This document shows, piece after piece, positions 630-9,725 of a stretch of 9,725 nt of DNA. Origin of the DNA: Candidatus Atribacteria bacterium. GTDB lineage: Bacteria; Atribacterota; JALVIU01. Each line of letters opens with the position of its first letter. The stretch's first letter is position 1. The stretch is taken from NCBI GenBank assembly GCA_027028665.1, contig JALVIU010000265.1, forward strand, positions 1 to 9,725, given 5' to 3'. The notes under the pieces were generated by a model, which was not told the origin of the DNA, did not search any database, and saw nothing but the letters and a program-made list of their open reading frames with translations. Both the position numbers and the translations under genes were made by a program.

Positions 630-1622
630 ATGTGGATTGAGTTGGATAAAAATTCAAAAATTCCTTTTTATATTCAAATTAAGGAGCAAATAAAAAAAAT
701 GATTCAAGAGGGGATGCTTACCGAAGGTGAACAGCTCCCCACAGAGAGAGAACTGTCCGAAACCCTTAATATAAGCCGTAATACAGTAAGTACTGCATAT
801 GAAGAACTAAAAAGAGAAAGAATTATCGATTCCTCCCCTGGAAGAGGTACCTTTGTAGCTACCTCCGATAAAACCCTTAATATAAAAATCCCTAAAGACA
901 AAGTGAAAAAATATGGGGCAATATTTGAAAAGATAATTGATGAAGCACTTCAAGAAGATCTCTCCTTTGATGACCTTTCAGGTATCTTTAAGGAGAAGAT
1001 AAAGGAGAAAAAGAAACTTTTAAAGAAGACAAGACTTGCCTTTGTAGAGTGTAATTATGAACAACTTAGCTATTTTTCCCATAGGTTAGAGCTGGGTGTA
1101 GGTGTAAATATCCATTCATTTTTGCTGGATGATATCTATAAGGATATACCAGGATTTTTAAGACAGATAAGAGATATGGACCTTATAGTGACAACATTTT
1201 TTCATCTACCCGAGGTAGAGAAGATTGTGAGCGGGAAAAAACCAGTAATGGCTATCTCTTTAGACCCTCAGATAGAGACCATGGTGAGAATCGCTCGTCT
1301 TCCAGAGGGTGCAAAAGTTTCTTTGGTATGCATCTCAGATAGATTTGCAGAGAGAGTAAAAAAGTCCTTGAGGAACGTAAATTTGACAAATATTGAGCTA
1401 AAGCATACTACTACTAAGGATATAAAAAAACTTCAGAAATTTTTAAAGGGTTCTGATGCAATTATTGTCTCTCCAGGGAGGAAAAGAGATGTGGAGGCAA
1501 TCGTTAAAGATAAAAATATACCTATCATCGAATTTGTATATGTGCCAGATAAGGGTTCAGTTCACAATTTGAGAATGAAAATTATAAAGGTCCAAAGGGA
1601 GAAAGAGAAAAATGGCTCTTAA
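630..1622 (+). CDS. GntR-family transcriptional regulator with an unassigned C-terminal domain
   Basis: This 330-residue protein starts at ATG 630, five bases after GGAGG (621-625). Residues 1-76 form a textbook GntR winged helix-turn-helix: PFYIQIKEQI near the N terminus, LPTERELSE (36-44), SRNTVSTAYEEL (49-60) and the wing motif PGRGTFV (70-76), closest in style to the YtrA/MocR type of DNA-binding domain. A charged helical stretch (about 88-133) leads to a C-terminal region of about 200 residues with alternating beta-strand and helix segments (strand-like at 134-141, 183-190, 204-212, 228-236, 275-283 and 297-305). It lacks the aminotransferase domain of MocR proteins, and YtrA proteins are much shorter. 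It is the first gene of the operon and overlaps korD by 11 bases, so it likely controls the operon and its own expression in response to an acyl-CoA, oxoacid or related signal. The ligand is unknown. Confidence 0.88.
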   Translation: MWIELDKNSKIPFYIQIKEQIKKMIQEGMLTEGEQLPTERELSETLNISRNTVSTAYEELKRERIIDSSPGRGTFVATSDKTLNIKIPKDKVKKYGAIFEKIIDEALQEDLSFDDLSGIFKEKIKEKKKLLKKTRLAFVECNYEQLSYFSHRLELGVGVNIHSFLLDDIYKDIPGFLRQIRDMDLIVTTFFHLPEVEKIVSGKKPVMAISLDPQIETMVRIARLPEGAKVSLVCISDRFAERVKKSLRNVNLTNIELKHTTTKDIKKLQKFLKGSDAIIVSPGRKRDVEAIVKDKNIPIIEFVYVPDKGSVHNLRMKIIKVQREKEKNGS

Positions 1623-1833
1623 GGCTAAGGCAAAGGTAGACCATATTGACATTAACACCTCTTGGTGTAAGGGATGTGGGATATGTATTGGTATGTGTCC
1701 TACACAGGTATTGGAATTTGATGAGCGTTTTAAAGCAAGAGTAGCTCATCTTGAGAAATGTATTAACTGTAAACTATGTGAGCTTTTATGCCCTGAACTT
1801 GCAGTATCTGTAGAGGAGGCAGAAAATGAGTAA
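1612..1833 (+). CDS. korD: 2-oxoacid:ferredoxin oxidoreductase delta subunit, 2[4Fe-4S] ferredoxin
   Basis: This 73-residue protein has two classical [4Fe-4S] motifs: C19-x2-C22-x2-C25-x3-C29-P and C50-x2-C53-x2-C56-x3-C60-P. It is the electron-transfer subunit of the Kor complex, taking electrons from the beta-subunit cluster to soluble ferredoxin. The short acidic tail and the length match the small ferredoxin-like subunits of four-subunit 2-oxoacid oxidoreductases. It starts at ATG 1612 inside the end of gntR (11-base overlap), with AAAGGGAG (1594-1601) as ribosome binding site, and its own end overlaps korA by 8 bases, indicating translational coupling. The order delta-alpha-beta-gamma and the neighbours favour a 2-oxoglutarate enzyme, but this subunit alone would not separate it from pyruvate or branched-chain oxoacid enzymes. 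Confidence 0.93.
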   Translation: MALKAKAKVDHIDINTSWCKGCGICIGMCPTQVLEFDERFKARVAHLEKCINCKLCELLCPELAVSVEEAENE

Positions 1834-2959
1834 GAATGTAAGACTTATGCAAGGGAATGAGGCATTGGTAGAAGCTGCAATAATGGCTGGTGTTAGATTT
1901 TTTGCAGGATACCCTATTACACCTTCCTCTGAGATTGCAGAAGGTTTTTCAAAAAAACTACCAAGAGTAGGTGGAAAGTTTATCCAGATGGAAGATGAGA
2001 TTGCATCAATGGCGGCTACAATTGGTGCTTCCATTGCAGGTGTAAAGTCTGTTACTGCTACATCTGGTCCAGGTTTTTCCCTTAAGCAAGAAAATTTAGG
2101 TTTTGGTATTATGGCAGAGGTTCCTTGCCTTGTAGTAAATGTACAGAGGATGGGCCCAAGCACAGGTAGGCCAACAAAACCCTCTCAAGGCGATATTATG
2201 CAGACTCGGTGGGGGACGCACGGAGATCATCCTATAGTAGTACTCTATCCCACTACAGTTCCAGAAGTATTTAAATATACCATTGAGGCAATAAATATAT
2301 CTGAAAGACTTAGAACTCCTGTGATATTTCTTATGGATGAAACCCTGGGTCATATGAGGGAAAAAGTGTTACTACCTGAACCAGATGAGATTAAAGTGGT
2401 AAATAGAAAATTCCCAAAGGTGGGTAAAGAAGATTATCTTCCTTACAAACCAGCAGATGATGATGTACCTGTTATTGCACCTTTTGGTAAGGGGTATAGG
2501 TATCATATAACAGGCCTACATCATAATTATAAGGGCTATCCTACTACTCAACCAGAAGAAGTAGAAGAACTTACTAAAAGGCTTTTAAGGAAGGTAGAGA
2601 GAGTGCTCGATGATATCTTTATTTTAAACACCTATATGTATGATGATGCAGAATATGTCTTATATGCATACGGTATTACTGCAAGAATAGCCAAAGAGGC
2701 AGTAAATATTCTAAGAGAAGAGGGACTTAAGATCGGACTTTTGAATCCTATTACCATATGGCCATTTCATGAAGATAAGATAGAGGGGCTTTTAGGGGGT
2801 AAGAAAAAGGTTTTTGTAGTAGAGCTTAATTCGGGGCAGATGAAGGGAGAGATCGAGAGGATCTATCCTCGAAAAGATGTTATAGGGATAAATAAACTAA
2901 ATGCAGAGCTTATAAATCCTTATGAAATTGCAGATCATGTGAGAGAGGGATTAAGATGA
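1826..2959 (+). CDS. korA: 2-oxoglutarate:ferredoxin oxidoreductase, alpha subunit
   Basis: This 377-residue alpha subunit carries the pyrimidine-binding and transketolase C-terminal-like domains of 2-oxoacid:ferredoxin oxidoreductases. Hallmarks seen are GYPITPSSE (28-36), the acidic MEDE block with the glutamate expected to activate thiamine diphosphate (55-58), TSGPG (79-83), GPSTGRPTK (110-118) followed by QGD (121-123) and GTHGDH (130-135), and a late VELNSGQM block (332-339) typical of KorA. With KorB it oxidatively decarboxylates 2-oxoglutarate to succinyl-CoA, reducing ferredoxin. It starts at ATG 1826 behind GAGGAGG (1813-1819), overlapping korD by 8 bases, and its TGA overlaps the korB ATG (ATGA). 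The substrate call rests on similarity to KorA and on the succinyl-CoA-using genes downstream; a branched-chain oxoacid (Vor-type) enzyme is the main alternative. Confidence 0.9.
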   Translation: MSKNVRLMQGNEALVEAAIMAGVRFFAGYPITPSSEIAEGFSKKLPRVGGKFIQMEDEIASMAATIGASIAGVKSVTATSGPGFSLKQENLGFGIMAEVPCLVVNVQRMGPSTGRPTKPSQGDIMQTRWGTHGDHPIVVLYPTTVPEVFKYTIEAINISERLRTPVIFLMDETLGHMREKVLLPEPDEIKVVNRKFPKVGKEDYLPYKPADDDVPVIAPFGKGYRYHITGLHHNYKGYPTTQPEEVEELTKRLLRKVERVLDDIFILNTYMYDDAEYVLYAYGITARIAKEAVNILREEGLKIGLLNPITIWPFHEDKIEGLLGGKKKVFVVELNSGQMKGEIERIYPRKDVIGINKLNAELINPYEIADHVREGLR

Positions 2960-3774
2960 GTTTACAAAATATAAAGAAATACCTAAGAAAAGATATGTTT
3001 CCGCACATATGGTGCCCTGGGTGTGGAAATGGTATTATAATGGCATCTCTTTTGCGCGCAATAGATGCATTGGCTTTAGATCCAGATAAAGTGGTAGTGG
3101 TTTCTGGTATAGGATGCTCTGGTAGGATTTCTGGATATCTTGATTTCAATACAGTACATACTACGCATGGAAGGGCGCTCGCCTATGCAACAGGTATAAA
3201 GCTTGCAAACCCGGAGCTTACTGTTATAGTAGCGATGGGTGATGGTGATGGAAGTGCTATTGGAGGGAATCATCTTATCCATGCAGCAAGGAGAAATATA
3301 GATTTAACAGCTATCCTATTTAATAACTCTATATATGGAATGACAGGGGGACAATTTTCTCCACTTACGCCCTTTGAAAAAAGGGCATCTACTGCTCCAT
3401 ATGGTAATGTAGATCATCCATTTGATCTGGCACCTCTTGTAAAGAGTGCTGGTGCTTCATTTGTAGCACGTACTACTACATTCCATGTATTTAATCTCCA
3501 GAAGTATCTTGAGCGAGGTATAAAGAAAAAGGGATTTTCCTTTATAGAGGTGATAACAGGGTGTCCAACATTCTACGGAAGATACAACAAGATTGGAGAA
3601 GGGTTAGATATGATAAAATATCAAAAGGAGCACTCTATTACATATGATAGGGCAAAGAATCTATCAGAAGAAGAACTTGCAGATAAGATTGTGGTGGGTG
3701 TATTTCAGGATATAGAAAAACCAGAATATATAAGTGAATATGAAAAAATAATAGAGAGGGAGCATCATGAGTAA
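2956..3774 (+). CDS. korB: 2-oxoglutarate:ferredoxin oxidoreductase, beta subunit (ThDP and [4Fe-4S] binding)
   Basis: This 272-residue catalytic beta subunit binds the diphosphate of thiamine diphosphate and one [4Fe-4S] cluster. Visible cluster ligands are C20 and C23 (WCPGCGNG), C54 (GIGCSG) and C203 (TGCP); the C20/C23/C54 spacing equals that described for archaeal two-subunit 2-oxoacid:ferredoxin oxidoreductases. The ThDP/Mg motif is GDGD (95-98) with the following asparagine-rich NNSIYGMTGGQ (123-133). The PLTPFEKRAST stretch after it is usual in KorB sequences. The protein is cytoplasmic. Its start shares the ATGA junction with korA, and its stop overlaps korC by 8 bases, so subunits are likely made in matched amounts. 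All expected residues are present, so it should be active. Confidence 0.92.
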   Translation: MSLQNIKKYLRKDMFPHIWCPGCGNGIIMASLLRAIDALALDPDKVVVVSGIGCSGRISGYLDFNTVHTTHGRALAYATGIKLANPELTVIVAMGDGDGSAIGGNHLIHAARRNIDLTAILFNNSIYGMTGGQFSPLTPFEKRASTAPYGNVDHPFDLAPLVKSAGASFVARTTTFHVFNLQKYLERGIKKKGFSFIEVITGCPTFYGRYNKIGEGLDMIKYQKEHSITYDRAKNLSEEELADKIVVGVFQDIEKPEYISEYEKIIEREHHE

Positions 3775-4321
3775 TAGAGATAGAATTGAGGTCTTGTTTT
3801 GGGGTATTGGGGGTCAAGGACTTGTGCTTGCATCCATTATTCTGGCAGAAGCAGTAGGTGTTTATGAGGGGAAGAATGTAGTTCAATCTCAGGCATATAC
3901 AGCTATAGTGAGAGGTGGAACAAGTAAGGCCAATGTTATTGTATCAGAAGAAAAAGAAATTCTTTTCCCTCAGGTGCTTTCCCCTGATATTTTAGTGGCC
4001 TTCTCTCAGGAGGCGTATAATGCAAATAAAGGAAAGCTAAAGCCAGACACAAAAATCATATATGATAGTGATATGGTAAAGATAGAAGATAATGTTCCAT
4101 TTAAGCTCTATGGAATTCCATTTTTTAAGATCGCAAGAGAGGAACTTGGAATTCCCTTTGCAGGGAATGTAGTGGCCCTTGGTGCCTTCAGTGCAGTGAC
4201 TGGCATAGTAAAGCTCTCTTCTCTGGAGAGAGCCCTCTTATCAAAGGTAAGAGAGGAGTATCACGAGATAAATAGAAAGGCCCTGGAGAGGGGATTTGAG
4301 TTAGCCGAGAAACTCAATTGA
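3767..4321 (+). CDS. korC: 2-oxoglutarate:ferredoxin oxidoreductase, gamma subunit
   Basis: This 184-residue protein belongs to the POR/KOR gamma family. Family landmarks are the N-terminal GIGGQG loop (13-18) followed by a long helix, the QAYTAIVRGGTS block (42-53), DILVAFS (74-80) and GNVVALGAF (133-141). In the complex this domain contacts the alpha subunit and helps form the CoA-binding side of the active site. It starts at ATG 3767 within the end of korB, behind GAGAGGG (3754-3760). Stop TGA is at 4319-4321, and the next gene begins 14 bases later. Two adjacent small inverted repeats sit in the mRNA near its 3' end (4213-4233 and 4235-4253). Confidence 0.92.
   Translation: MSNRDRIEVLFWGIGGQGLVLASIILAEAVGVYEGKNVVQSQAYTAIVRGGTSKANVIVSEEKEILFPQVLSPDILVAFSQEAYNANKGKLKPDTKIIYDSDMVKIEDNVPFKLYGIPFFKIAREELGIPFAGNVVALGAFSAVTGIVKLSSLERALLSKVREEYHEINRKALERGFELAEKLN
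4213..4253 (+). other. Two tandem small hairpins within the korC 3' coding end
   Basis: GCTCTCT (4213-4219) pairs with AGAGAGC (4227-4233), and CTCTTA (4235-4240) pairs with TAAGAG (4248-4253). Both have 7-base loops and are one base apart. No T-tract follows, so they are not an intrinsic terminator. They could slow RNase decay or ribosomes at the boundary between the kor genes and the next gene, or could be coincidence in purine-rich coding sequence. Confidence 0.25.
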
Positions 4322-4335
4322 TATAGTATGTAAAC

Positions 4336-5154
4336 ATGGAAGTATATGCACTTATTGGTGAAAGTGGCACAGGTAAGAGTTATAAATCTTTACTTCTTGC
4401 ATATGAATATAAAATAGATTATATACTTGATGATGGCCTTTTAATAAAAAGAAATAGGGTCATAGCAGGTAGATCTGCGAAAAATGAGCCCAATAGATTT
4501 AGGGCAGTAAAGAGGGCGATATTTTTTGAAAAAGAGCATAGAGAAAGTGTAAAGACCGCTATTAAAGAACAACATGTAGAAAAACTCCTTATACTTGCTA
4601 CTTCTGAAAAGATGTTAAACAGAATTATAGAGAATTTAGATCTACCTGCTCCTATAAAGATCATAAGAATTGAAGACATCTCAGACCCTGAAGAAATCTA
4701 TCTTGCAAAAAGAGAAAGAAATAAGGAAGGAAAGCATACTATTCCTATTCCTAAAATTCAGATTGAAAAAGATTTTCCTGGAAATTTTGTAGAATCTTTA
4801 GAGGTAATATATAAAAGTATATATAAGATTGGGGAGCGGACTATTGTGCGTCCCCCATTTAGTTTTTTTGGTAAACTATTTATTTCAGAAAGGGCGATCT
4901 TTTCTCTTATAGAGTATATATTAAGTGATATCGATGGTATATATAAGATAAGAAAAAAAAGTGCGAAATTTGGTGATGTAGGTTTAGAAGAGATCAACCT
5001 TGAAGTACTGCTTTATTTTGATGTAAATATTGCTCAGAAAGTAGAAGAGATTCAAGAACGAATATACAATGTATTTTCAGAGTATGTAGGAATACCTGTA
5101 GAAAAGATAAATGTAAAGGTATTAGATTTAATAGAGAGGAGTGAGGAGGTTTAA
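4336..5154 (+). CDS. P-loop NTPase-like protein with C-terminal Asp23/Gls24-like domain, function unknown
   Basis: This 272-residue protein begins with a beta strand running straight into a Walker A motif, GESGTGKS (8-15). A DDG-containing strand (about 29-36) and ILAT (86-89) follow, but no clear Walker B or known NTPase family signature could be assigned. A variable linker (about 130-175) leads to a region (about 178-265) that looks like an Asp23/Gls24 domain: GKLFISERAIFSLIEYIL, a GDVG turn, the strand NLEVLLYFDVNIAQKV, a helix, then a VGIPVEKINVKVLDL strand. Asp23-family proteins are small envelope-associated or stress proteins in Gram-positive bacteria. There are no membrane segments. 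The start is fixed because an in-frame TAG (4324-4326) lies just upstream with no other start codon between, yet no Shine-Dalgarno sequence is visible, unlike all neighbours. It is sandwiched between the kor and methylmalonyl-CoA modules, 3 bases before the mutase gene. The domain call is from pattern recognition only. Confidence 0.7.
   Translation: MEVYALIGESGTGKSYKSLLLAYEYKIDYILDDGLLIKRNRVIAGRSAKNEPNRFRAVKRAIFFEKEHRESVKTAIKEQHVEKLLILATSEKMLNRIIENLDLPAPIKIIRIEDISDPEEIYLAKRERNKEGKHTIPIPKIQIEKDFPGNFVESLEVIYKSIYKIGERTIVRPPFSFFGKLFISERAIFSLIEYILSDIDGIYKIRKKSAKFGDVGLEEINLEVLLYFDVNIAQKVEEIQERIYNVFSEYVGIPVEKINVKVLDLIERSEEV
4831..4869 (+). other. GC-rich hairpin plus T7 tract inside the P-loop/Asp23-like gene
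   Basis: GGGGA (4831-4835) pairs with TCCCC (4851-4855), extendable past a one-base bulge by CG (4837-4838) with CG (4849-4850), leaving a 10-base loop. A run of seven T follows at 4863-4869, seven bases after the stem. It lies at the linker between the two domains of the host protein. The stem-to-T distance is longer than in an ideal intrinsic terminator, so pausing or coincidence is more likely than efficient termination. Confidence 0.25.
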
Positions 5155-5157
5155 AAA

Positions 5158-6822
5158 ATGAATGAGAGTTTGAAAAAAGAAAAAGAGAGATGGGAATCTA
5201 CAACATTAAAAAAAGTTATAGATAGATTTCCTGAGAGGAAGAAAGAGTTTAGAAGTTACTCAGGTATACCTATTGAAAGGGTTTATACACCTTTGGATAT
5301 AGAAGGATTTGATTATCTTTCCCATCTGGGATTTCCTGGTGAGTACCCTTATACCCGTGGTGTACAGCCCACCATGTATAGAGGTAGATTCTGGACCATG
5401 AGACAGTATGCAGGTTTTGGTACTGCAAAGGAGTCAAATCAAAGATATAAATACCTTCTTTCCCAGGGACAAACAGGTCTCAGTATCGCATTTGATCTTC
5501 CTACACAGATGGGATATGATTCAGATAATCCACTGGTAAGTGGAGAGGTAGGGAAGGTGGGTGTAGCTATCGATTCACTGGAGGATATGGAAGTACTTTT
5601 TTCAGGTATTCCTCTGGATAAAGTAAGTACTTCTATGACAATAAACTCTACAGCTGCTATACTTCTTTCAATGTATATGGCCATTGCTGAAAAACAGGGA
5701 ATATCCTTTAATAAGCTAAGAGGAACTATTCAAAATGATATACTAAAAGAGTATATAGCTCGTGGTACATATATCTATCCGCCGAGACCCTCTATGAGAC
5801 TTATTACAGATATATTTGAATTTTGTTCCAGAAATATTCCCAGGTGGAATACTATCTCTATTAGTGGATATCATATAAGAGAGGCAGGTGCTACTGCACC
5901 CCAGGAGATTGCATTTACCCTGGCAGATGGTATTACTTATGTAGAAGCCGCTTTAAGTAAGGGATTAAATGTAGATGAGTTTGCCCCAAGGCTTTCCTTC
6001 TTTTTCAATGCTCATAATAATCTTTTGGAAGAGGTAGCAAAGTTCAGGGCAGCAAGGAGAATGTGGGCAAAAATTATGAAAGAGAGATTTGGTGCAAAAA
6101 ATCCAAAATCGATGATGCTTCGTTTCCATACCCAGACTGCAGGATCCACACTTACAGCTCAGCAGCCTGATAATAATATAGTAAGAGTTACTATTCAGGC
6201 CCTTGCTGCAGTTCTTGGAGGTACACAATCCCTCCATACTAATTCCAGAGATGAAGCCCTATCATTACCCACAGAGGACTCTGTAAGAATTGCACTCAGA
6301 ACACAACAGATCATTGCATATGAAAGTGGTGTCCCAGAAACCGTTGATCCATTGGCAGGCTCTTATTTTATAGAGGCGATGACAAATCGAATAGAGAAAG
6401 AGGCATGGGAATATATAGATAAAATAGACAAAATGGGAGGTATGATAAAGGCTATAGAAGAAGGATATGTACAAAAGGAGATTCAGGATAGTGCATATCA
6501 ATTCCAGAAAGAAGTAGAGGAAAAAGAGAGGATAATTGTAGGTGTAAATGAATTTAAGATAGAGGAAGACATAAAGCCAAAAATACTTAAAGTTGATCCT
6601 GAGATAGAACGTATACAGATAGAAAGGCTTCAGGAGCTTAAGAAGAAAAGAGATAATAGAGCAGTAAAAAGTGCGCTTTCTACCTTAAAGGATAAAGCAA
6701 AAACTGATGAAAATCTTGTTCCATACATATTTGATGCGGTGAAGGCATATGCTACCCTGGGAGAGATAAGTGATGTATTAAGGGATGTATTTGGTATATA
6801 TGAGGAGAAGATATTTATATAG
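5158..6822 (+). CDS. mcmA1: Methylmalonyl-CoA mutase, large (catalytic) subunit
   Basis: This 554-residue TIM-barrel subunit of the split mutase interconverts succinyl-CoA and (R)-methylmalonyl-CoA by a radical mechanism with adenosylcobalamin. The substrate barrel is complete: [17 protein letters not shown] (72-88), [20 protein letters not shown] (104-123), [11 protein letters not shown] (189-199), SGYHIREAG (236-244), HTQTAGSTL (324-332) and TQSLHTN (356-362). By alignment spacing, Y84, R202 and H239 match Tyr89, Arg207 and His244 of the Propionibacterium enzyme. The Tyr/Arg pair marks methylmalonyl-CoA rather than isobutyryl-CoA specificity (Phe/Gln). The C-terminal B12 domain is absent and encoded by the next gene, as in archaeal and many anaerobe mutases. 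ATG 5158 follows GAGGAGG (5143-5149). The TAG stop is in the same frame as the downstream small subunit. Confidence 0.96.
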
Positions 6823-6829
6823 GAGGGAG
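6821..6829 (+). promoter_or_regulatory. Ribosome binding site fixing the TTG start of mcmA2
   Basis: AGGAGGGAG overlaps the mcmA1 TAG stop and sits 5 bases before TTG 6835. It supports this rare start codon and implies translational coupling to the large subunit. Confidence 0.8.
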
Positions 6830-6834
6830 AGAAA

Positions 6835-7239
6835 TTGAATAGGAGACTAAGAGTTCTTATTGCAAAACCTGGATTAGATGGCCATGATAGGGGAGCAAAG
6901 GTAATAGCAAGAGCATTAAGAGATGCGGGTATGGAGGTTATATACACAGGTCTCCATCAAACACCAGAACAGATAGTGGAAACTGCTATACAGGAGGATG
7001 TTGATGTGATAGGTCTTAGTATTCTCTCTGGTGCCCATATTCCTTTATTTAAGAGGGTAATGGATCTTTTAAAGGAAAAGGGAGCAGAAGATATATTGGT
7101 ATTTGGTGGAGGCGTAATTCCAGAAGATGATATACCCGTGCTTGAGAGTTTCGGTGTGAAAAAGATATTTACTCCTGGCACATCCACCAGAGAGGTTATA
7201 GAGTATTTAGAGGAATATTTTAAAAATGGAAGAAATTGA
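6835..7239 (+). CDS. mcmA2: Methylmalonyl-CoA mutase, small (cobalamin-binding) subunit
   Basis: This 134-residue protein is a stand-alone B12-binding domain. It shows the base-off/His-on signature D15-x-H17-x2-G20 (LDGHDRG), the serine-rich loop SILSG (62-66) and the GGG loop (91-93), all of which line the dimethylbenzimidazole nucleotide tail pocket; H17 would be the lower axial ligand to cobalt. Its length is normal for small subunits of split mutases. It pairs with the large subunit immediately upstream to form the active enzyme. Translation starts at TTG 6835: the in-frame TAG of mcmA1 (6820-6822) bounds the ORF, no ATG lies between, and a strong AGGAGGGAG is correctly spaced. The 3' end overlaps meaB by 14 bases. 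Confidence 0.95.
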
Positions 7240-8155
7240 TAAGCTTCTTGAAGATTTTAAAAAGCGAGATAGACGTGCACTATCTCGACTCATTACTATT
7301 ATAGAGAATAATTTTTATAAAATTCAAAAAAAATTCTATTTGTTACTTGACGGAACTCAAAAATCTTATATAATAGGAGTAACAGGTGCACCTGGTGCTG
7401 GAAAGAGCTCTCTTATAAATTTATTGATCTCGGCATTTAGAAAAGAGGGAAAAAGTGTAGGAGTAATTGCAGTGGACCCCACAAGTCATAGGACTGGTGG
7501 GGCATTTTTAGGTGATAGAATAAGGATGCAGTCCCATGCTCTGGATAAGGATGTATTTATAAGGAGTATGGGCTCAAGAGAGGGAAAGGGTGGACTTTCA
7601 TTATCTACCCCTCTTGCCGTGAGACTCTTAGATGCATACGGTTTTGATATTATAATGGTAGAGACCGTAGGCATAGGTCAAGAAGATATAGAAATTTTTA
7701 AACTATCTGATACAGGATTGTTAGTCGTTACCCCAGAATCCGGAGATGATATTCAGCTTATAAAAGCGGGAAATCTTGAAGAGGCAGATATTATTGTTAT
7801 AAACAAGGCAGATAGGGAAGGTGCAGATAGACTATATAAAGAATTTAAGAGAGAGCTTGGCAATGTTAAGAATTCCTATGGTTTTTCACCCATTATAGTT
7901 AAGGTAAGTACTGTAAAAAAGGAAGGTATTTCTGAGCTTATAGAAGCCATAGATATTCATAAGAGATTTATGGAAGATAATCGGGTATTTGAAAAAAAGA
8001 GAAGAGAAAGGAATCTTTCTTTGTTTTATTTACTTATGGATTATACTATTCGAAAAACTCTTAGGGAAGAGGGAATAATATTAAAAGATATAGAAAGTGG
8101 TAATATAGACCCTTTTACAGGGGTAAAAAAGGCGATGAATGTTATTTGTGAATGA
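7226..8155 (+). CDS. meaB: MeaB-family GTPase, chaperone of methylmalonyl-CoA mutase
   Basis: This 309-residue G3E-class P-loop GTPase loads adenosylcobalamin into the mutase and protects or rescues it from inactivation. Motifs in order are Walker A GAPGAGKS (54-61), VDPTS (83-87), [12 protein letters not shown] (90-101), the switch/Walker B region [10 protein letters not shown] (145-154), [10 protein letters not shown] (173-182) and the guanine-specificity motif NKAD (193-196). A short N-terminal helical arm (1-45) and C-terminal helices (about 240-309), typical for dimerisation, are present. The usual ETVGVGQSE block reads ETVGIGQED here, a mild variation. The gene starts inside the end of mcmA2 (14-base overlap), with AGAGGA (7209-7214) as a somewhat distant ribosome binding site. 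Its place right after the mutase subunits makes it the cognate chaperone rather than an ArgK-type kinase, an old and doubtful name for this family. Confidence 0.95.
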
Positions 8156-8161
8156 GGAGGG
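8154..8161 (+). promoter_or_regulatory. Ribosome binding site deciding the mce start
   Basis: GAGGAGGG overlaps the meaB TGA and sits 4 bases before ATG 8166. It argues for 8166 rather than the in-frame ATG at 8139, which lies inside meaB and lacks such a site. Confidence 0.8.
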
Positions 8162-8165
8162 ATAT

Positions 8166-8579
8166 ATGTTAAAAGAGATTGATCACCTGGGAATAGCTAT
8201 TTCTAATCTTGATGAGGGTGTGAGGCTTTATAAAGACCTTTTGGGTTTTGATCTGGAAGGATATGAAGAAGTAGAGGATCAAATGGTAAAAGTAGCAATG
8301 CTTAATGCCCACGGGAAGACCCCGAATATTGAACTTCTTGAGCCTACGAGCAGTGATAGTCCTATATATAAGTTTATAGAAAAGAAAGGTGAAGGTATAC
8401 ATCATATTGCACTTGGTGTAGAAAATATAGAAGAGGTCCTTGAAAGGTTAAAAAAAGAAGGTGTAAGAGTTATAGATGAAGTGCCTCGTATGGGCGCAGG
8501 TGGTAAAAAAATCGCCTTTTTACATCCAAAGTCTACAAAAGGGGTGCTTATAGAGCTCTGTGAAAAGCAATCCGAATAA
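8166..8579 (+). CDS. mce: Methylmalonyl-CoA epimerase
   Basis: This 137-residue protein of the vicinal-oxygen-chelate (glyoxalase) fold interconverts (R)- and (S)-methylmalonyl-CoA, linking the mutase to the carboxyltransferase. Two beta-alpha-beta-beta-beta modules are seen, beginning [20 protein letters not shown] and [15 protein letters not shown]. Putative divalent-metal ligands are H7, E56 (in IELLEP), H80 and E130; the H80-E130 spacing of 50 matches that of the Propionibacterium ligands His91 and Glu141. The ending [14 protein letters not shown] is the family hallmark. The chosen start gives the usual length and puts DHLGIA at the normal N-terminal position; an extended frame from 8139 would add nine residues with no family counterpart. 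The next gene follows after 10 bases. Confidence 0.95.
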
Positions 8580-8589
8580 GGAGGAGAAT

Positions 8590-9725
8590 ATGAGCGAAAG
8601 AACTATTGATGATTTGCTGAAAGAACTTGAAGAAAGAAGAGAGAAAGTCAAGAAAGGTGGGGGAGATAAGGCCATTGAGAAACAACACCAAAAGGGAAAA
8701 CTTACAGCAAGAGAGAGACTTGCGCTGTTGCTTGACCCAGATAGTTTTGTAGAAATTGATACATTTGTTCAGCATAGGTCTACCTATTTTGGTATGGATA
8801 AAAAGGAGGCCCCTGCAGATGGTGTTGTTACAGGTTTTGGCACAATAAACAACAGACTTGTATTTGTGTATGCTCAGGATTTCACCGTTTTGGGTGGTTC
8901 TCTGGGGGAGATGCATGCTCAGAAGATATCAAAGATCCAGGATATGGCACTTAAGATGGGAGCACCTATAATAGGTATAAATGATTCAGGTGGTGCGAGG
9001 ATTCAAGAAGGGATAGACTCTTTGAAGGGATATGGCGATATATTTTATAGAAATACCATCTCTTCTGGTGTTATACCTCAGATTGCCATAATTGCAGGAC
9101 CATGTGCAGGTGGAGCTGTGTATTCTCCAGGTATTATGGATTTTATTGTAATGATAAAAAATACAAGTAATATGTTCATTACAGGACCACAGGTTATAAA
9201 GGCTGTTACAGGGGAAGAGGTTACATTTGAGGAATTAGGTGGCGCAATGACCCATAATAAGAAAAGTGGCGTTGCACACTTTGCTGCAGGCTCAGAGGAA
9301 GAAGGTTTCAATACAGTAAGAGAGCTACTTTCATATATACCATCTAATAATGCAGAAGAAGCTCCTATTTTTGATACACAAGACCCCCTTAATAGAAGAG
9401 AAGAATTCTTAAAAGATATAGTTCCAACCAATCCTAACAAACCCTATGATGTAAGAGATGTGATTAAGGGTGTATTTGATAATGGAGAGTTTTTTGAGGT
9501 GCATAAATACTTTGCTCCAAACATTGTAGTAGGGTTTGCAAGATTAGGTGGTCGTTCCGTGGGGATAATAGCTAATCAGCCAAAGGTGTTTGCAGGTGCA
9601 CTGGATATAGATGCATCAGATAAAGCTGCACGATTTATAAGATTTTGTGATGCCTTCAATATTCCCATAGTTACATTTGTAGATGTCCCAGGGTTTTTAC
9701 CAGGCACTACTCAGGAATACGGGGG
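8590..9725 (+). CDS. mmdA: Methylmalonyl-CoA decarboxylase alpha / propionyl-CoA carboxylase beta (carboxyltransferase), 3' truncated
   Basis: The frame is open from ATG 8590 (AAGGAGGAG at 8578-8586) to the window edge, giving 378 residues of a protein that is normally about 510-520. It belongs to the biotin-dependent carboxyltransferase family acting on propionyl-/methylmalonyl-CoA. Visible landmarks are GKLTARERLALLLD (36-49), FTVLGGSLGEMHAQK (98-112), NDSGGARIQEG (131-141), the first oxyanion-hole region AGPCAGGAVYSP (169-180), ITGPQV (197-202), ELGGA with a following THNKKSGVAHF (215-231), and FVDVPGFLPGTTQEYG (363-378), which opens the second oxyanion-hole segment. It moves the carboxyl group between (S)-methylmalonyl-CoA and carboxybiotin. 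Whether it works in a Na+-pumping decarboxylase, a transcarboxylase or an ATP-dependent carboxylase depends on partners beyond the window. Confidence 0.93.
   Translation, partial: MSERTIDDLLKELEERREKVKKGGGDKAIEKQHQKGKLTARERLALLLDPDSFVEIDTFVQHRSTYFGMDKKEAPADGVVTGFGTINNRLVFVYAQDFTVLGGSLGEMHAQKISKIQDMALKMGAPIIGINDSGGARIQEGIDSLKGYGDIFYRNTISSGVIPQIAIIAGPCAGGAVYSPGIMDFIVMIKNTSNMFITGPQVIKAVTGEEVTFEELGGAMTHNKKSGVAHFAAGSEEEGFNTVRELLSYIPSNNAEEAPIFDTQDPLNRREEFLKDIVPTNPNKPYDVRDVIKGVFDNGEFFEVHKYFAPNIVVGFARLGGRSVGIIANQPKVFAGALDIDASDKAARFIRFCDAFNIPIVTFVDVPGFLPGTTQEYG

Follow-up and report, generated by a model that had tools for sequence, protein, structure and literature searches.

What does a protein do that combines a P-loop domain with an Asp23 domain and is encoded inside a central-metabolism cluster? 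The question is posed by the open reading frame at positions 4336–5154 (+) of the window, i.e., the whole 9,725-nucleotide stretch of Atribacterota DNA analyzed here. Asp23 proteins are abundant yet poorly understood; the family has been termed exclusive to Gram-positive bacteria, and the Staphylococcus aureus Asp23 forms filaments, its self-assembly and membrane recruitment being known (PMC6954212). In the present protein the Asp23 domain is joined to a putatively active enzyme, and the conserved fusion reaches several phyla, including Borrelia- and Treponema-like genomes.

The gene and its product

The frame starts with ATG, ends with TAA and codes for 272 amino acids (protein P0001). In-frame full-length orthologues were present in 42 of the 61 genomes of the first survey, showing the frame to be genuine, and its product is a genuine two-part protein consisting of a putatively ATP-binding, kinase-like domain and an Asp23 domain. 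The gene is single copy. The following features were located:

1612..4321, + strand: korD (1612–1833), korA, korB and korC, directly upstream (context, outside the family)
4336..5154, + strand: P-loop–Asp23 fusion gene, 272 aa, with orthologues across several phyla
4336..4815, + strand: N-terminal P-loop kinase-like domain, about residues 1–160 (Walker A, invariant residues, hhalign, Foldseek)
4357..4380, + strand: Walker A GESGTGKS, residues 8–15 (G8, G11, G13, K14 and S15 invariant in the alignment)
4429..4446, + strand: DDGLLI motif, residues 32–37, where predicted strand 2 ends (alignments and model)
4717..4752, + strand: R-x(5)-H-x-I-P-x-P motif, residues 128–139, LID-like region (R128, H134 and P137 invariant)
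4846..4878, + strand: VRPPFSFFGKL linker motif, residues 171–181, ahead of the Asp23 domain (P173 invariant in all aligned sequences)
4882..5139, + strand: Asp23 domain, about residues 183–268 (profile matches and AlphaFold model)
5143..5149, + strand: probable mcmL ribosome-binding site GAGGAGG within the 3' end of the fusion gene (mcmL start at 5158)
5158..9723, + strand: mcmL, mcmS, meaB, mce and pccB (cut by the window end), directly downstream (context)

The domain limits are close to residues 1–180 (linker counted in) and 183–268. An earlier note, made from the sequence alone, had placed the domains at 1–130 and 178–265, recognizing both correctly with limits that are now shifted. It had also rightly described a fusion of the two, a Walker A motif with K14 (G8-E-S-G-T-G-K14-S15) and an uncharacterized protein encoded within a central-metabolism gene cluster, and its label "P-loop NTPase-like" is correct as well. 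A 19-residue hydropathy scan of P0001 found no clear membrane span, the maximum being 1.19 versus 2.75 for a transporter of the same window, which suggests that the fusion protein is soluble. The likely ribosome-binding site of mcmL sits in the final codons of the fusion gene, and promoter and terminator scans gave scores no better than shuffles.

The C-terminal Asp23 domain

Searched alone against Pfam PF03780, P0001 scored 25.9 bits (E 1.4e-5, residues 219–264; cut-off 28), and 30.7 bits when searched with its neighbours in the frame. Of 23 Atribacterota fusion members the profile matched 22, and of 51 drawn from all phyla it matched 49 (best E 5.7e-12, up to 42.7 bits), several of them covering profile positions 9–107 of 108. 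By the curated cut-off the family thus belongs to Asp23, though P0001 alone falls below it, so that the PF03780 match expected earlier was obtained for the family and not for P0001 by itself; the matches of its relatives remove the doubt over the Asp23 identity of P0001.

The NCBIfam AmaP model (NF033218) matched residues 179–262 of P0001 with E 1.8e-6 and 27.8 bits against a cut-off of 55, and in 40 of the 51 members the C-terminal part was like the Asp23 part of AmaP. In the AlphaFold model, residues 183–270 formed an alpha-beta-beta-alpha-beta unit at mostly confident to fair confidence. The profile match and this predicted unit are shared with the Asp23/Gls24 proteins, including AmaP, while the fusion protein differs from them in having its Asp23 domain joined to a P-loop domain, and from AmaP also in missing its cut-off and lacking an AmaP-like membrane hairpin. 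The modelled Asp23 part is also similar to the C-terminal domain of the cation diffusion facilitators, at a Z of about 11; the likeness is one of predicted fold only and does not indicate metal transport. PF03780 matched nothing but the fusion in nine Spirochaetota-like genomes, and two others had no match anywhere.

The N-terminal P-loop domain

Twenty columns were identical in an alignment of 127 sequences, including G8, G11, G13, K14, S15, D32, D33, S47, K49, F63, S90, M93, R128, H134, P137 and P173; for 56 of these sequences the frames had been chosen by a pattern demanding Walker A and DDG, so that the invariance of these two motifs is partly circular there, while that of the other positions is not. 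An independent 51-row alignment gave the same invariant set, including Walker A and D32–D33 in all rows. Three Bacillota-like members that escaped the pattern had DDA instead of DDG (Ala for G34) and kept both Walker A and D32–D33. The residues kept in every aligned sequence, such as D32, D33, R128 and H134, point to a putative active site. They also show which positions to mutate, making the role of an Asp23 protein testable via catalytic activity.

Neither Pfam nor NCBIfam had a model for this domain, and neither matched the N-terminal half convincingly; PHROGs had no match over this half, and the PDB held no sequence relatives other than de novo designs and P-loop segments. Among the kinase models of Pfam and NCBIfam, none attained its curated cut-off across the domain: in one member the general AAA model barely reached its own, and AAA_33 and AAA_17 gave at most about 20 bits versus 27 in ten members.

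Profile comparison with hhalign aligned the domain, between strands 1 and 3, with shikimate kinase (PF01202): the probability was 90 over 78 columns, and 64–87 over 75–77 columns with only three sequences, while the MeaB control aligned by the P-loop alone (22 columns). Walker A and the strand 2 Asp keep the register of shikimate kinase as far as strand 3. Foldseek with the N-terminal model placed gluconate, adenylate, deoxyadenosine and shikimate kinases on top, with E only 2e-3 at best, while VIA-align reached Z of at most 7.1 (5–7 for several P-loop classes) and favoured Clp1/Grc3 and GPN-type P-loops. Because these scores are modest and the structure model was built from two sequences (mean pLDDT 66.7), "kinase-like" is a lead and not a classification; since residues 128–180 of the model are unreliable, the putative role of R128 and H134 is read from conservation.

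Shared with the shikimate, gluconate and adenylate kinases are the Walker A, the conserved Asp ending strand 2, the order of elements to strand 3 and, by eye, an Arg-containing LID-like segment. The fusion protein differs from P-loop small-molecule kinases in its extra predicted strands past the DD motif, in the missed curated scores and in its own invariant set of S47, K49, S90, M93 and H134. Taken together, the profile and fold comparisons weakly favour a place within this P-loop kinase group (shikimate, gluconate, adenylate kinase) and not with HPr kinase. The domain may even represent a new P-loop kinase family with the signature D32–D33, S47-x-K49, S90-x-x-M93 and R128-x5-H134-x-x-P137, fused to Asp23 before the compared phyla separated, a possibility which we rate as distinctly short of an even chance. 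If true, it would provide an enzymatic function for an Asp23 protein, extending to spirochaetes without any other Asp23 domain.

Distribution and descent

The fusion was found in 42 of 50 genomes of Atribacterota, the phylum of the window, several misses being fragmented assemblies. It is therefore a conserved single-copy gene of the phylum and not an oddity, as it had first seemed. Elsewhere, all but one of 120 genomes from a Synergistota-like phylum (119) carried it, as did 29 of 120 genomes from a Spirochaetota-like phylum, including Borrelia-like and Treponema pallidum-like ones, and one of two genomes from one further phylum. A draw centred on a Bacillota-like genome had it in 110 of 395 genomes (78 genera); these "-like" names are inferred from gene order and genome size. 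The result is a conserved uncharacterized fusion family in at least four bacterial phyla. The phylum of genome G059, with 136 genomes searched, yielded no copy, although an empty answer is weak there. A narrow family had been considered when, in a first count, no more than four genomes outside the phylum had the gene; the 110 genomes then found by a draw around another centre identify this early near-absence as a sampling effect.

In a tree made before the Bacillota-like set was found, and thus without it, the sequences of Atribacterota-A, Atribacterota-B, the Synergistota-like and the Spirochaetota-like phyla formed one group each, which fits vertical descent. The fusion was inherited as one unit in each phylum group. 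No viral relatives were found. Among about 330 genomes outside Atribacterota no stand-alone N-terminal domain was present, save for the T. pallidum-like copy, which has kept this domain and lost Asp23; the N-terminal domain may therefore act alone. The frame of this copy (L104:8083-8889) ends soon past VRPPFS and is followed by the next gene about 40 bases on.

Long open frames in G482, G433, G459 and G453 had hinted at extra domains, as in Rosetta-stone fusions. None was found in G433 and G482: the upstream translation in G433 is low-complexity and GC-rich, and G482 has a run of N. A literature search for the putative locus tags BB0816, TP0423 and CD0178 returned nothing relevant, most subscription journals being outside the search.

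Gene neighbourhood

In the window the fusion gene is part of a tight operon. The upstream part includes a korD-like ferredoxin gene at 1612–1833 (+; 73 aa, two Cys clusters), which overlaps korA and the end of a GntR gene and makes this part korDABC. The neighbour counts below come from chosen loci with no chance baseline, and related genomes among them are not independent. Among 73 distinct loci, mcmL was immediately downstream in 19, all from one half of the Atribacterota (Atribacterota-A), and korC immediately upstream in the window only; no Synergistota-, Spirochaetota- or Bacillota-like locus had a kor or mcm gene directly adjacent. The earlier note had proposed a neighbourhood survey, holding that the location would be incidental if orthologues were mostly away from kor/mcm, and mostly away they were; hence the fusion protein does not serve Kor or Mcm in particular, and its conservation in at least four phyla speaks likewise against a helper specific to the two adjacent metabolic enzymes.

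The order in Atribacterota-A was gdh-[fusion]-mcmL-mcmS-meaB-mce-pccB, with korABC-ackA-nfnAB ahead in complete loci, the window being a variant with korC directly upstream. Atribacterota-B had secA-prfB-[fusion]-pccB, then a biotin carrier in most, while in the Synergistota-like phylum [fusion]-UDG-uppS-cdsA-dxr came after murA or murA-hisC; the gene ahead of the fusion in seven Spirochaetota-like loci codes for a pseudouridine synthase (rluA). Within 3.2 kb downstream in the Bacillota-like loci, GDH was present in at least 23 of 57, NfnAB in 7 of 57 and OGG in 34 of 57, and Rex was upstream in 21 of 57. GDH or Nfn recurred in two phyla, as did a DNA glycosylase (two unrelated types), and GDH or NfnAB is a more widely shared neighbour than kor/mcm.

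Two further observations concern single loci. In the Bacillota-like L179, L183 and L186, GDH was absent and the fusion overlapped or abutted the OGG gene, followed by groES-groEL. In an Atribacterota locus (L002:10479-12061), pccB lay in two overlapping frames (87 and 456 aa), possibly by a frameshift or an assembly error.

Possible functions

The explanation favoured here, tentatively and at slightly under an even chance, is that the fusion protein depends on ATP and acts as a kinase-like core enzyme or switch, Asp23 serving as its docking or self-assembly module. Its N-terminal domain would bind Mg-ATP via Walker A (K14, S15) and D32, and R128 and H134 of the LID-like segment, to judge from their conservation, would transfer a phosphate or switch conformation. 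By analogy with stand-alone Asp23, the C-terminal domain may self-assemble or dock on a partner, and this module would set the cellular place of the enzyme or switch; neither Kor nor Mcm in particular would be its substrate or partner. The state to which it may respond could be that of redox and amino-acid metabolism, as suggested by the recurrence of GDH, NfnAB and Rex. None of the envelope, carboxylase and nucleic-acid-repair alternatives is favoured by the neighbourhood in all phyla.

A role in envelope homeostasis is unlikely, yet deserves to be taken seriously. Asp23 would then sit at the inner membrane face, as in the S. aureus Asp23–AmaP pair, and the NTPase would report the energy state to wall and lipid synthesis. 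This would agree with the AmaP-like C-terminal parts, with the Synergistota-like neighbours murA, uppS, cdsA and dxr, with the Mur ligase that follows the fusion in a Borrelia-like locus and with the cell-wall stress caused by loss of Asp23 in S. aureus (PMC6954212). It is countered by the lack of a clear membrane span in P0001 and its miss of the AmaP cut-off, and by the metabolic and housekeeping neighbours in Atribacterota and Bacillota-like genomes.

Regulation of a biotin-dependent acyl-CoA carboxylase (PccB and a biotin carrier, beside Mcm) is rather improbable. It is suggested by analogy with the Asp23 protein YqhY of Bacillus subtilis, which appears to restrain acetyl-CoA carboxylase; yqhY shares its operon with accBC, and ACCase mutations are selected when it is lost (PMC5437119). 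Carboxylation genes of this type are indeed near the fusion in Atribacterota, where pccB was immediately downstream in 15 Atribacterota-B loci, with the biotin carrier next in most, and ended the mcm cluster in Atribacterota-A; in 10 of the 12 Synergistota-like regions, pccB or meaB was likewise no more than about 8 kb away. The gene order is not common to YqhY and fusion loci, and YqhY is not known to have a P-loop domain. However, no pccB was present in the sampled Spirochaetota-like regions or within 3.2 kb in Bacillota-like loci, and Borrelia, seemingly a carrier of the fusion family, is not known to make fatty acids, which also counts against this explanation.

Quite improbable is a nucleic-acid enzyme with a polynucleotide-kinase-like P-loop and a KH-like accessory domain, acting in base-excision repair or RNA processing. 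In its favour, uracil-DNA glycosylase is the next gene in nearly all Synergistota-like loci, the OGG of the Bacillota-like loci is unrelated to it, and RNase E/G, prfB and rluA adjoin the fusion elsewhere. VIA-align put the Clp1/Grc3 kinases first, and Foldseek of the whole model put first Der, in which, as in Era, a KH-like alpha/beta domain comes after the P-loop domain; the whole-model Der/Era alignments had TM-scores of about 0.2, not meaningful as a whole, and by eye the fusion lacks the NKxD motif of these GTPases. The Z and E-values are weak, long housekeeping operons may alone explain the neighbours, and Asp23 proteins are not known to bind nucleic acids.

An HPr kinase/PEP carboxykinase-like protein kinase, first suspected from the similar spacing, by eye, between Walker A and DD (GxSGTGKS ... 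DD), is very unlikely: PF07475 appeared for one member among the matches listed, with E 0.02 and 14.8 bits versus a cut-off of 33.3, hhalign with three sequences each gave 31% over 29 columns versus 64–87% over about 76 for shikimate kinase, and this kinase was absent among the Foldseek matches listed. Separately, a 287-aa frame elsewhere in the genome of the window (L130, G000:C308:2544-2693) gave a partial HPr-kinase-like match of 27 bits, below the cut-off.

That the protein is dedicated to assembling or regulating Kor or Mcm, as put forward in the earlier note, has next to no probability: the tight operon and the 19 loci with mcmL adjoining speak for it, while the adjacency is missing from every other clade and the operon already has MeaB, the known Mcm chaperone.
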